Source of the DNA: a virus
DNA length: 24,451 nt
Virus record (IMG/VR): IMGVR_UViG_3300042509_001135
Coordinates: 1-24,451 of that record
Reading direction: 5' to 3' (one strand)
The notes beneath the pieces are model-generated. The model did no database searches. It was not told the DNA's origin and worked only from the letters and a program-made list of their open reading frames with translations. The position numbers and the translations under genes were made by a program. Of this stretch, positions 16,743-18,930 are shown one piece after another; positions within the stretch are counted from its first letter, which is position 1, and every line of letters starts with the position of its first letter.

Positions 16743-16997
16743 CTATTCCTTTCCTTGATTAAGTATTCGGTACGCAATCTCTTCTGATGCGTACTCCCAG
16801 TCCTTACATTGATGACAGATCATGGCCGCACGCTCACGCTCACGCTCCACGATCAGCCCGGCAAACTGCAACAAGCAAGCAAGGTCTCCGTCCATCCCTT
16901 CGTCCGTGTGGAGAAACTGCTTGCCATCCCACTCATGCTTGACCCACGGCAGGATCCCCGCACTCACCGCTAACTCCAGCACCTCTTCTCTCTTCAT
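16743..16997 (-). CDS. Small phage protein, AERE-type helix, 84 aa; first gene of replication operon
   Basis: ATG 16997 has an excellent AGGAGGTG Shine-Dalgarno; a longer in-frame reading to 17060 would cross the promoter and is rejected. The product (MKREEVLELAVSAGILPWVK...) ends with CLLQFAGLIVERERERAAMICHQC, akin to the common phage pattern FAALVAAAEREACAKVC seen here also at 22744-22977. This family occurs widely with unknown function. Confidence 0.75.
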   Translation of the reverse strand: MKREEVLELAVSAGILPWVKHEWDGKQFLHTDEGMDGDLACLLQFAGLIVERERERAAMICHQCKDWEYASEEIAYRILNQGKE

Positions 16998-17015
16998 AGG
17001 CCACCTCCTAGATGT

Positions 17016-17044
17016 AGAGTAATACAGCACATGATTCTTGTCAA
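17016..17044 (-). promoter_or_regulatory. Promoter of leftward replication operon with operator-like element
   Basis: On the minus strand a perfect TTGACA (17044-17039), a 17-base spacer and a poor -10 TACTCT (17021-17016) precede the ATG at 16997. The spacer contains the reverse complement of CACATGATTCTTGT (17028-17041), which recurs with one change at 17978-17991. A weak -10 with a good -35 suggests help from a regulator. Confidence 0.5.
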
Positions 17045-17070
17045 CACCCGTGTATTGCAAGTTCCGTGTT

Positions 17071-17604
17071 TAGGTTCCCCATGGGTGATAGCCCCCTCCT
17101 TGCGGAGCACACTCGGGGTATCTGCCCTGCCCAGCTACTGATCTTGTCAGCAGCCTAGCTGTCCCAGAAGGCAACGATTATCTCGATGGAAGGTATGTCT
17201 CACCACTGGCCCTTCCCTCTTGTGCTATCCCTCGTTGAAGGTAGCGTGGCTCGCAGGCGGGTCAGACCTCGGCCAGTGTTTTCTCTTCGGCAGCCCATGC
17301 AAGCTCTCTGCTTTCGTGGAAGGTACGGTCAGAGGTTGACCGCTTAATGGTGGTGGTGGGTACCGATCTCCCACTGACTGGCTCCGGCGTCACCCCGCCT
17401 GCACCACCATTAAACAGTCAACGCCAAAAGAAAAACCCCAGACAACTTAGGTGGGGCATGGCCCGTTGGCATGGGCAACCCAGTCATATCCCGCGAAGGA
17501 CTTTTCCCTGTTTAAAGGGAAGATAAGACTGAACTACACATGCCCCACCTAAACTGACTGGGGTTGTTTCGTCCTTCGCGCTATGACAGAGTGCCAACTC
17601 TGAC
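17071..17604 (-). ncRNA. Candidate large structured noncoding RNA (or structured origin)
   Basis: No convincing ORF, but many long-range perfect pairings: 17434-17441 with 17558-17565 plus 17447-17460 with 17539-17552 (22 bp, with a 5x5 internal loop); 17492-17501 with 17571-17580 (10 bp, pseudoknot topology); 17335-17340 with 17417-17422 plus 17344-17355 with 17402-17413 (18 bp); 17204-17211 with 17271-17278 (8 bp). Local hairpins are at 17087-17122, 17132-17161, 17224-17245, 17356-17374, 17504-17521 and 17587-17602. The minus orientation is favoured by the promoter at 17611-17639 and by the loop at 17100-17103, which reads GCAA (GNRA) on that strand. The ends are approximate, and no terminator is seen at the left end. 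It may instead be the leader of the replication operon, or a replication origin. Confidence 0.5.
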
Positions 17605-17610
17605 GCGCAG

Positions 17611-17639
17611 ATAATAGGACAAGTCTAGAAGTTATGCAA
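17611..17639 (-). promoter_or_regulatory. Promoter driving the structured region leftward
   Basis: On the minus strand TTGCAT (17639-17634), exactly 17 bases, then TATTAT (17616-17611). The -10 is a 5/6 match and the -35 a 3/6 match. Transcription would start near 17604, just before the first hairpin. Confidence 0.45.
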
Positions 17640-17784
17640 GCGGACTGTATGAGACTTTATTGGACAACATGAGATGGGGTGACTACTCGCTGCACTGGCG
17701 CTTTCTCTCATCCGGTGGTGGTTCCGGGAACTCACCAGCATCCGCTTTCGTCACCCGCAATTATACAGGAACGATCTATTGTAT

Positions 17785-17819
17785 GGGAAAAAAGACCCCG
17801 GCAAGGGGAAGAGCCGGGG
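17785..17819 (-). terminator. Intrinsic terminator, minus strand (second of tandem pair)
   Basis: Stem CCCCGGC/GCCGGGG (17796-17802 with 17813-17819), 10-base loop, then TCTTTTTT when read on the minus strand (A-run at 17788-17793). It is a textbook rho-independent terminator in this direction only. Confidence 0.75.
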
Positions 17820-17824
17820 CTGGG

Positions 17825-17849
17825 AAAAAGCAGCGTCTCTCTCGCTGCT
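17825..17849 (-). terminator. Intrinsic terminator, minus strand (first of tandem pair)
   Basis: Stem AGCAGCG/CGCTGCT (17829-17835 with 17843-17849) with a 7-base loop, followed on the minus strand by TTTTT (17829-17825). With the terminator at 17785 it forms a tandem stop for a minus-strand transcript that carries no obvious gene. Confidence 0.75.
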
Positions 17850-17960
17850 GGTCGCCAGGCATTCGGCAGAAGAGGAGGTTCACACGTGAAGGAGAGTGAA
17901 GTATCTGCCGAGCACCCAGCCCAACGATACCCGATGCACCCGCTCTTGTAAACGTTGACA
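17850..17960 (-). ncRNA. Possible small minus-strand RNA ending at tandem terminators
   Basis: Just upstream (minus sense) of the tandem terminators lies an 8-bp inverted repeat, TCGGCAGA (17863-17870) with TCTGCCGA (17904-17911), whose loop holds TTCAC-AC-GTGAA (17879-17890). No credible coding frame is seen. I found no strong minus-strand promoter, so both the start and the existence of this RNA are inferred from the terminators. The rest of 17640-18004 shows nothing else apart from the CACATGGTTCTTGT element at 17978. Confidence 0.3.
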
Positions 17961-17977
17961 TATACAAACAATTGCAA

Positions 17978-17991
17978 CACATGGTTCTTGT
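17978..17991. promoter_or_regulatory. Operator-like element CACATGGTTCTTGT
   Basis: Matches CACATGATTCTTGT at 17028-17041 in 13 of 14 positions, in the same orientation on the plus strand. One copy overlaps the leftward promoter, and this one lies 14 bases upstream of the rightward -35 box, as for a shared regulator. Confidence 0.45.
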
Positions 17992-18004
17992 TTTATTTCG
18001 ACTG

Positions 18005-18033
18005 TTGACGTATACTAGATCTAGTAGTACAGT
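18005..18033 (+). promoter_or_regulatory. Promoter of rightward recombination operon with palindromic operator
   Basis: TTGACG (18005-18010), 17 bases, then TACAGT (18028-18033). The spacer contains the perfect 14-bp palindrome TACTAGATCTAGTA (18013-18026), a good repressor site between -35 and -10. Downstream, CTATATCTAGGGG resembles CTACATCTAGGAG in the leftward operon leader. Confidence 0.6.
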
Positions 18034-18057
18034 CGCCACTATATCTAGGGGAGCAAT

Positions 18058-18930
18058 ATGAAACTCACCAACAAGCACGGTCTGCCTGACACATTCATCA
18101 ACGTTATCCAACGGCCTACTTATAGCCGTGGCAACAGCGAGATATCTGTTACGGAGATCCTATCACCGCCGCAGCTAGTACTCCTGCGCCGCCGTCATGC
18201 CGATGATATCGAAGTCGATGCGGCAGATCAGGTCTGGAGTCTGTTCGGGTCAGCAGTCCACAACATCCTACAACACGGCAAGGATGAGCATCACGTTGTC
18301 GAGGAACGCCTGTTCACCACGTTCGAAGGCTGGAGTATCAGCGGCGCTATTGACCTGCAAACCTTTCAGCCAGATGGGTCGGTCATCATCTCTGACTACA
18401 AGGTGACATCTGCCTGGGCAGTCCAGCAGCAGAAGACCGAGTGGATAGATCAGTTGAACCTGTACGCATGGCTGATCGAACGGACAAAGGCGCTGCCGGT
18501 TACTGGCCTACAGATCATCGGCATCGTCCGCGACTGGAGCCGCAGAGAAGCAGCCATCAAAGACACCTACCCGCAGGCACCGATTGTCACCATCGACATC
18601 CCGCTCTGGGACGCGGAGACACGCGAGCAGTTCGTGAAGGGTCGTCTGACCCTGCACAACGAAGCTAACTTCTCGGCAGTCAGTGGTGAGATGCCGCAGT
18701 GTACGCCCGATGAAATGTGGGAAAAGCCCACCACCTACGCTGTAATGAAGGAAGGTGGCAAGAGAGCGAAACGGGTATTTGAATCACTTGACCAAGCCGA
18801 AGCGTTCCGGGCTGAACAAACGGGAGCGCACCACATTGAAACGAGAGAAGGCGGCAGGACTCGATGCGAATCTTTCTGTCAGGTCGCTCCATTTTGTCAG
18901 CAGTACAAATCCTACAAGGAGGCAGTATGA
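18058..18930 (+). CDS. RecB/Cas4-like PD-(D/E)XK nuclease with Fe-S cysteines
   Basis: A 290-residue exonuclease-type protein. GSAVHNILQ (H68), SGAIDLQ (D98), IISDYKV (D113, K115) and QLNLYAWL (Q132, Y136) are motifs I-IV of the RecB/Cas4 nuclease fold. C215 with C270, C274 and C280 (RCESFCQVAPFC) form a likely 4Fe-4S site as in Cas4 and AddB. It probably resects DNA ends to feed the ERF annealing protein two genes downstream. GGGGAG supplies the Shine-Dalgarno. No cas1/cas2 or CRISPR array lies in the window. Confidence 0.85.
   Translation: MKLTNKHGLPDTFINVIQRPTYSRGNSEISVTEILSPPQLVLLRRRHADDIEVDAADQVWSLFGSAVHNILQHGKDEHHVVEERLFTTFEGWSISGAIDLQTFQPDGSVIISDYKVTSAWAVQQQKTEWIDQLNLYAWLIERTKALPVTGLQIIGIVRDWSRREAAIKDTYPQAPIVTIDIPLWDAETREQFVKGRLTLHNEANFSAVSGEMPQCTPDEMWEKPTTYAVMKEGGKRAKRVFESLDQAEAFRAEQTGAHHIETREGGRTRCESFCQVAPFCQQYKSYKEAV

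Follow-up and report, generated by a model that had tools for sequence, protein, structure and literature searches.

The locus and its putative RNA

Does the gap of about 1 kb between two divergent phage operons encode a structured RNA and, if so, of what kind? The gap lies in a 24,451-base IMG/VR virus record, which was analysed over its whole length and is referred to here as the window. Its genes on the minus-strand side include those of a portal protein (phrog_1216), a terminase (phrog_38), a helicase, a Toprim protein and a ParB-like protein, and those on the plus-strand side include a nuclease and an Erf protein. The sequence evidence supports a putative two-part noncoding structured RNA of a new family, encoded at 17604-17066 on the minus strand; no transcript has been seen, and both the function and the expression of this RNA are inferred only, no RNA having been measured. 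The parts of the locus are as follows:

17611-17639, minus strand: promoter TTGCAT-N17-TATTAT, read from the sequence, with the transcription start expected at ~17604
17427-17604, minus strand: variable 5′ domain, comprising the P1 hairpin, segment X, the A/A′ hairpin with X′ in its loop, and a U-run
17335-17422, minus strand: extra hairpin (18-bp stem) between the 5′ domain and the core, found as an inverted repeat
17071-17327, minus strand: conserved core RNA of ~257 nt, delimited by nhmmer and covariation, with a conserved tail that reaches ~17066
17016-17044, minus strand: separate promoter of the left operon, TTGACA-N17-TACTCT, identified by eye just past the RNA and absent from the consensus scan

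Inverted repeats were found at 17431-17460/17539-17568 (30 nt, 87%), 17335-17355/17402-17422 (21 nt, 90%) and 17492-17501/17571-17580 (10/10), together with more pairs of 8-12 nt. The helices listed in an earlier sequence-only reading of this DNA, among them stems of 22 and 18 bp, do exist as repeats, but both of these stems lie in the least conserved half of the region, the strongly conserved part being 17071-17327. The GNRA-type loop GCAA that this reading had noticed was found in the hairpin CUCC-GCAA-GGAG, which starts at 17107. The folding energy of the minus strand over 17060-17620 was −235.6 kcal/mol, compared with −201.1 ± 6.2 in 100 shuffles (z −5.6, 0/100 as low). Since the plus strand of this region also folded low (z −4.8), the strand could not be identified from folding alone.

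Homology and distribution of the core

A total of 40 loci were obtained by a flanking-nuclease search for relatives. When these were compared with the gap by blastn, L004 matched it at 97% over 17000-17327 and at 96% over 17676-18057, with nothing between, L006-L009 matched from 17020 to ~17330 at 85-89%, and only right-hand parts of the gap were matched by L005 and L010. The region is therefore modular among the nuclease relatives, 17020-17327 being kept in some of them and 17328-17640 in none. The middle region of L004-L010 had a single architecture (promoter, X, long A/A′ hairpin with X′ in the loop, U-run), and past the U-run several loci had ~260 nt in common with the window.

A 5′-domain pattern derived from L004-L010 found 84 stretches in viral contigs, and a second pattern, containing only the core tail, found 60 viral stretches. 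A first core alignment, built by pattern from 14 unique sequences, yielded only a poor consensus in RNAalifold and was replaced by a wider set. The core profile, made from 14 tail-holding sequences with the window excluded, gave 94 hits in 243 loci, and the window core matched it over 17327-17071 with 97.4 bits (nhmmer, E=4.2e−28). Two more scans with core motifs returned 43 stretches, of which 26 were new loci; the core was present in 26/26, of which 2 were only partial, but as these loci had been fetched with core motifs, this result shows only the specificity of the motifs. The covariance model R1 scored 174.9 bits on the window core, the window being part of the model. Moreover, cores were detected by the covariance model at E≤1e−3 in 18 of the 56 loci searched, 13 of them absent from the profile list; none of the 18 had been used in model building, and they are independent of the core alignment A1 described below. 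In 17 of these 18 loci, a 5′ domain of the type labelled RNA1 was followed downstream by the core on the same strand, within ~10 nt in 14 cases and at 175-320 nt in 3.

Altogether, the core was tallied in ~128 viral records, the window and MW202674.1 included, with contigs counted once but not de-replicated and with some hits partial. Matches to the 3′ tail of the core alone were seen in L199 (2176-2107), L210 (1786-1855) and L243 (5332-5263), perhaps as remnants left after gene replacement. Searches of isolate phage DNA gave no match with the window intergenic region or with two 5′-domain queries; one of the core queries found MW202674.1 and another found nothing. In GTDB, the 5′-domain pattern returned 61 stretches, of which 4 passed a rough filter, none of these 4 being a real member, and R1 found no core in 399 genomes of one order or in 289 genomes of one class. 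As only 6 and 9 candidates were scored per genome, these bacterial negatives for R1 are weak.

Fold of the core and covariation

The alignment A1 comprised 53 of the 81 near-full-length hits after removal of near-duplicates (effective number 28), with the window as one row. Its strongest covarying columns form the helices H0 to H6, including the pseudoknots H1 and H6, which in window coordinates are:

17315-17327, minus strand: H0 hairpin (17327-17325/17317-17315), from covariation
17322-17319 with 17288-17285, minus strand: H1 pseudoknot involving the H0 loop, from covariation
17290-17306, minus strand: H2 hairpin with loop UGCAUG, showing covariation between the loop and A1 columns 61 and 63
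17247-17275, minus strand: H3 and H3b, the latter weakly supported
17224-17245, minus strand: H4 hairpin, with all six positions standard pairs in 53/53 sequences
17188-17216, minus strand: H5 stem enclosing the near-invariant GGUGAGACA, from covariation
17172-17237, minus strand: H6 pseudoknot between the H4 loop 17237-17232 (CAACGA) and 17177-17172 (UCGUUG), from covariation

For the 38 pairs of these seven helices, 91.8% of cells were paired across the 53 homologues, compared with 65.9 ± 0.7% in shuffles and 33-41% in slid control versions of the helices, and double changes occurred in 553 cells versus 180 ± 12. When pairs were counted in which a double change occurs at all, the alignment was barely above the shuffles (33 vs. 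30.2; 2/500), and it should be noted that the alignment used for the pair counts is also the one from which the helices had been derived. Compensatory changes in homologous regions, which the sequence-only reading had proposed as a check, thus proved abundant. In the window, which belongs to A1, 38/38 positions were standard pairs, one of them U-G, and the minimum-energy fold contained 27/28 nested pairs and 0/10 pseudoknot pairs. The weakness of H3b is due to the A1 pairs 71-86, 72-85 and 73-84, which fail in 15, 26 and 14 sequences, respectively. The data support a predicted core structure in which seven or more helices covary and two of them are pseudoknots, and loop contacts within it are likely, with A1 columns 37-63 being G-C in 28 sequences and A-U in 25, and columns 41-61 being G-C in 38, C-G in 8 and unpaired in 7; the covariation of the H2 loop with columns 61 and 63 is a possible tertiary contact. 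Furthermore, covariation between columns 155 and 361 of the full alignment (CAA/UUG vs. CAU/AUG) ties window position 17082, in the tail, into the fold. The conserved tail GGGGAACCU may be similar to helix 45 of 16S, a likeness that was not used as evidence.

Over the seven helices (H3b excluded), 1,590 pair cells were Watson-Crick, 83 were G-U, 12 were A-C and 91 were other combinations. The excess of G-U over A-C (p=3e−14, with cells that are not independent) indicates that the selected molecule is an RNA from the minus strand. The view that the region holds no credible gene was borne out, as the core was open throughout in just 10 of 318 frame-rows (53 homologues × 6 frames); a conserved protein frame, which would have refuted a structured RNA, was looked for across these 53 core homologues and none was conserved. 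Compensatory changes, the strand-specific G-U excess and the lack of a conserved frame all back the proposal that the minus strand encodes a large structured RNA.

The variable 5′ domain

The elements of the 5′ domain in the window are:

17587-17602, minus strand: P1 hairpin, with a loop GUUGGCA able to pair with UGCCAAC at 17471-17465 (P4 loop)
17571-17580, minus strand: X, 5′ strand of the pseudoknot, CGCGAAGGAC, forming a 10-bp helix with 17492-17501
17539-17568, minus strand: A, 5′ arm of the terminator-like hairpin
17492-17501, minus strand: X′, 3′ strand of the pseudoknot, GTCCTTCGCG, within the A/A′ loop
17431-17460, minus strand: A′, 3′ arm, with the U-run at 17435-17431

A predicted pseudoknot built on a terminator-like hairpin is supported for this domain. 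The A/A′ stem followed by UUUUU at 17435-17431 fits an intrinsic terminator (stem, then U-run), termination itself being inferred; it was not listed by the simple terminator scan, which allows loops of 3-8 only. No minus-strand terminator was listed by the scan near the 3′ end of the window core. Because the hairpin and its U-run split the RNA into 5′ domain and core, the full-length transcript is an inference. A 5′ domain of the window type was found in L255 and L261 (identical there) with 87% identity over 187 nt. Most X/X′ positions were rewritten between the window (CGCGAAGGAC/GTCCTTCGCG) and L255 (TACGCTAATG/CATTAGCGTG) with 10 pairs retained, which amounts to one independent comparison. 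The P1 loop contact, with 7 pairs in the window and 5 in L255, lacks support from compensation in the window subtype. The hairpin at 17335-17422 was absent from L255 and L261, where the core came directly after the U-run, so this 18-bp hairpin looks like an insert.

Across the loci collected, the U-run was retained in 80 rows, some of them from duplicated contigs. Among the 59 distinct rows, the X/X′ complement had at least 10 letters in 55, 9 letters in 1 and 5 letters in 2, and was cut by the contig end in 1. The alignment A2 (56 rows) had 97.7% of cells paired versus 89.8% in shuffles, with changes on both sides in 135 cells versus 35. As an X/X′ complement of at least 8 was required of its rows, the X/X′ count in A2 is biased, and the 59-row count is less so. 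Upstream sequence was long enough to be assessed in 68 distinct core loci: at least five Ts within 60 nt upstream of the core were found in 45 (vs. 8.4% of shuffles), and a U-run with a helix of at least 9 bp ending there, no more than 60 nt before the core, in 44 (vs. 0.8% of shuffles), the gap from U-run to core often being 7-20 nt. The window is not one of these 44 because of the insert between its 5′ domain and core; the terminator-like element was missing at the tested distance in 24/68 loci, some of which have an insert (the window, L004 and L007) and in others of which none was found. The longest X/X′ helix averaged 7.9 versus 5.65 in shuffles (56 of the 68 loci, where the search was possible). 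Since L194 has no pseudoknotted domain and L205 no U-run before the core, the 5′ domain is usual but not required. In 15 of the loci found with the core-tail pattern, the 5′ domains were mostly of other sequence.

In the close relatives L005 (4800-5480) and L010 (1830-2450), the 5′ domain was kept and the core was replaced by other unclassified sequence; R1 found no core in either locus. An 88-aa frame lies between 5′ domain and core in L004 (5150-5480) and, by eye, also in L007, L049, L072, L258 and L259; the L004 protein had no match in Pfam or PHROGs.

Promoters and gene neighbours

The minus-strand promoter TTGCAT-17-TATTAT pointed out by the sequence-only reading is present at 17639-17611, although it is too weak to appear in the consensus scan. 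Its segment was found with 92% identity over 93 nt in L051 and, over 82 nt, with 91% in L107 and 90% in L083, followed in all three by another type of 5′ domain. Where the 5′ domain is of the RNA1 type (56 loci), the mean upstream promoter score was 8.43 versus 6.89 in shuffles, and scores of at least 9 were obtained in 24/56 versus 3.9% of shuffles. By eye, a separate promoter-like pair was seen within ~60 nt after the RNA in the window (17044-17016), L189 and L226, and another ~30 nt before the core in L194, with no pseudoknotted domain between.

No gene was common to the core neighbours, which included a Cro-like regulator (P22_Cro) in L189, RusA in L191, HNH in L045, a ParB-like gene in L194 and, together with the helicase, in the window, and Erf and SSB on one side of the core in MW202674.1. 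In L222 (terminase by Pfam) and L197 (by likeness), the core was found beside a terminase and a giant gene. The core was not linked to a single replication gene in the 12 loci examined. The genes downstream of the core and their spacing varied among loci. The next ORF of at least 90 aa was codirectional with the RNA in 27 of the 35 loci with enough flank, and most of the other 8 resembled shadow frames; in L196, a convergent 1183-aa frame lies downstream of the core. In MW202674.1 (L245, 3956-4192), two short hypothetical proteins are annotated over the core RNA on the opposite strand, and these are probably false genes.

Comparison with known RNA families

None of the 4,227 Rfam 15 families reached its gathering score over the whole window. 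The covariance models of GOLLD and ROOL, with which the sequence-only reading had compared the region, gave no match at gathering score over the window and none at E≤10 over 16950-18080, and, even at E≤10, no other family matched the window region convincingly. Nine matches at this threshold were taken as chance, the best being mir-4847 (E 0.045, 22 bits vs. a cut-off of 100) and another a C4 antisense RNA (E 8.8). Rfam at E≤10 gave two weak opposite-strand matches (E 2.2 and 3.2) in one of two diverse members and none in the other. At gathering score, 25 relative loci gave only RF02932 (L046) and one tRNA (L233, away from the core).

Bacteria and phages have few known RNAs that are both large and structured, and the phage RNAs GOLLD and ROOL remain functionally unexplained (PMC12286853). 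GOLLD is a large phage or prophage RNA whose 3′ part is conserved and whose 5′ part is less so, its members often exceeding 800 nt and often, though not strictly, lying near tRNA genes, and ROOL is phage-borne, with several pseudoknots and no identified protein partner (PMC12286853). These two are the nearest in spirit among known RNAs: the window RNA resembles GOLLD in being a large phage RNA whose 3′ part is the more conserved, but it is ~540 nt long and no tRNA gene was found in the 24-kb window; it is phage-borne with several pseudoknots like ROOL, but has no ROOL match at E≤10.

Betaproteobacteria-1 (RF02932, cut-off 49.4 bits) had no match in the window, while in L046 (1785-2015) it was found at 93.7 bits directly behind a phage-type 5′ domain, of the same type as that preceding the core in relatives. 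However, R1 gave no match in L046, and the one bacterial copy read (L248) has no such 5′ domain. Among 300 genomes sampled from a single bacterial order, 6 had RF02932 at E≤0.001, 4 of them above the cut-off. The putRNA of HK022 is a small cis element, whereas the window RNA spans hundreds of nucleotides with a fold of its own. As a phage RNA, putRNA is an element within early transcripts and has its effect on termination (PMC9378689).

Literature searches on phage RNAs, RF02932 and its source, and putRNA gave no description of the window RNA among the matches listed, subscription journals being mostly, and bioRxiv preprints wholly, outside their coverage. The RNA class is called new because it matched no Rfam 15 family and nothing alike was found in the literature searched; its newness rests on absence within what was searched, which is not proof, and the broad kind, the large ornate phage RNA, is already known. 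What is added is an RNA family with deep covariation, ~128 viral records and pseudoknots in both core and 5′ domain, for which alignments are ready for structure work on large phage RNA. Moreover, the swapped 5′ modules are a natural experiment on how phages control a large RNA, and recurrence beside unrelated genes suggests a general task in infection.

Proposed mechanism and alternatives

The reading towards which we lean, with only modest confidence, is that the RNA acts in trans and carries an attenuator-like module at its 5′ end; a role in trans is favoured by the widely differing neighbour genes. A dedicated σ70-type promoter (17639-17611) would make the RNA early in infection, and some transcripts would end at the U-run (17435-17431) as a ~170-nt RNA. 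The X/X′ pseudoknot, formable before A′ is made, might tune the share that reaches the ~540-nt form. Once made in full length, the compact RNA would act in trans, either by itself or as part of a multimer or a complex with protein (these last two being no more than a guess), and its task would be one on which phages with widely differing gene orders depend. As relatives swap 5′ domains and keep promoter and core, the 5′ domain would be a replaceable control module and the core the effector. The points counted for trans action were core homology, covariation, the strand test, the ordered covariance-model hits, X/X′ rewriting, promoter enrichment, the terminator-like element and the diverse neighbours, and also the convergent 1183-aa frame of L196 and the L194 core ~30 nt behind a promoter-like pair. 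Against it, the RNA has yet to be seen as a transcript, most transcription may already end at the U-run, ahead of the core, 27/35 next ORFs are codirectional, 24/68 loci lack the terminator-like element, no 3′ terminator is listed and the double-change measure is 33 versus 30.2. A bolder version, put forward tentatively and with more doubt than belief, is a widespread undescribed large phage RNA: its core would work as an RNA machine in many different phages, whether as a self-assembling scaffold, as an RNA-protein particle or as a ribozyme, and its expression would be set by an exchangeable pseudoknotted 5′ attenuator that can be traded between large RNAs.

The main rival, which we consider possible but rather unlikely, is a cis-acting leader at the operon head, working on its own RNA polymerase or on the downstream genes as an attenuator or as a processive antiterminator, like HK022 putRNA but larger. 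The codirectional next ORF in 27/35 loci, the terminator-like hairpin within the inferred transcript in 44/68 and the position of the L189 RNA after a Cro-like gene (P22_Cro) are what such a leader would have in its favour; however, a separate promoter-like pair no more than ~60 nt after the RNA (window, L189 and L226; by eye) means that the operon may not need read-through, the downstream genes and spacing differ among loci, a long convergent frame comes next in L196, and the core lies after the terminator-like element rather than before it. A more doubtful possibility, which overlaps both the trans and the cis readings, is that the locus makes two independent RNAs, one being the short terminated 5′ domain and the other a core that is processed on its own. 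The U-run after a strong hairpin, the L194 core without a pseudoknotted 5′ domain and the L046 5′ domain before RF02932 would suit it, but in 44 loci no more than 60 nt, and often 7-20 nt, separate the U-run from the core, leaving little room for a promoter between, and the covariance-model hits come in a fixed order.

The sequence-only reading had named a replication origin as the main alternative, and an RNA primer or regulator of an origin in the divergent control region agrees with the place of the window locus, which is flanked by two replication-type operons, one with the helicase and Toprim genes and the other with those of the nuclease and Erf. That alternative is weakened by the RNA-level, strand-specific pairing, by the copies in L222 and L197, which adjoin a terminase gene instead, and by the core not being bound to one replication gene in the 12 loci, so that we regard it as improbable. 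Hairpins acting at the DNA level (a single-strand origin, recombination sites or protein-binding sites) would account for both strands folding better than shuffles, but G-U outnumbers A-C by 83:12, the pseudoknots covary and the promoter-like sequences are codirectional, and a DNA-level explanation is strongly disfavoured, to the point of being hardly tenable.

Other elements in the control region

Further elements were noticed elsewhere in the gap. At 17930-17785 on the minus strand, a helix was, by eye, rewritten yet still paired (TCGGCAGA/TCTGCCGA vs. GACATTCC/GGAATGTC in L006), with C-rich loops including ACCUCCU and an end formed by a GC-rich hairpin and U6; a −35/−10 pair was given for this element by the consensus scan at 17952-17924, and a second small RNA is likely here. 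Moreover, a promoter-like TTCCCA-18-TATAAT (10/12) at 17789-17760 on the minus strand precedes a GGTGAC...GTCACC stem, and the stretch 17789-17676 may hold a third RNA, located upstream of the RNA described above. Finally, both divergent promoter regions, 17007-17049 and 17975-18049, contain like elements (CACATGATTCTTGT/CACATGGTTCTTGT and CTAGATGTAG/CTATATCTAG), which are perhaps shared operators.
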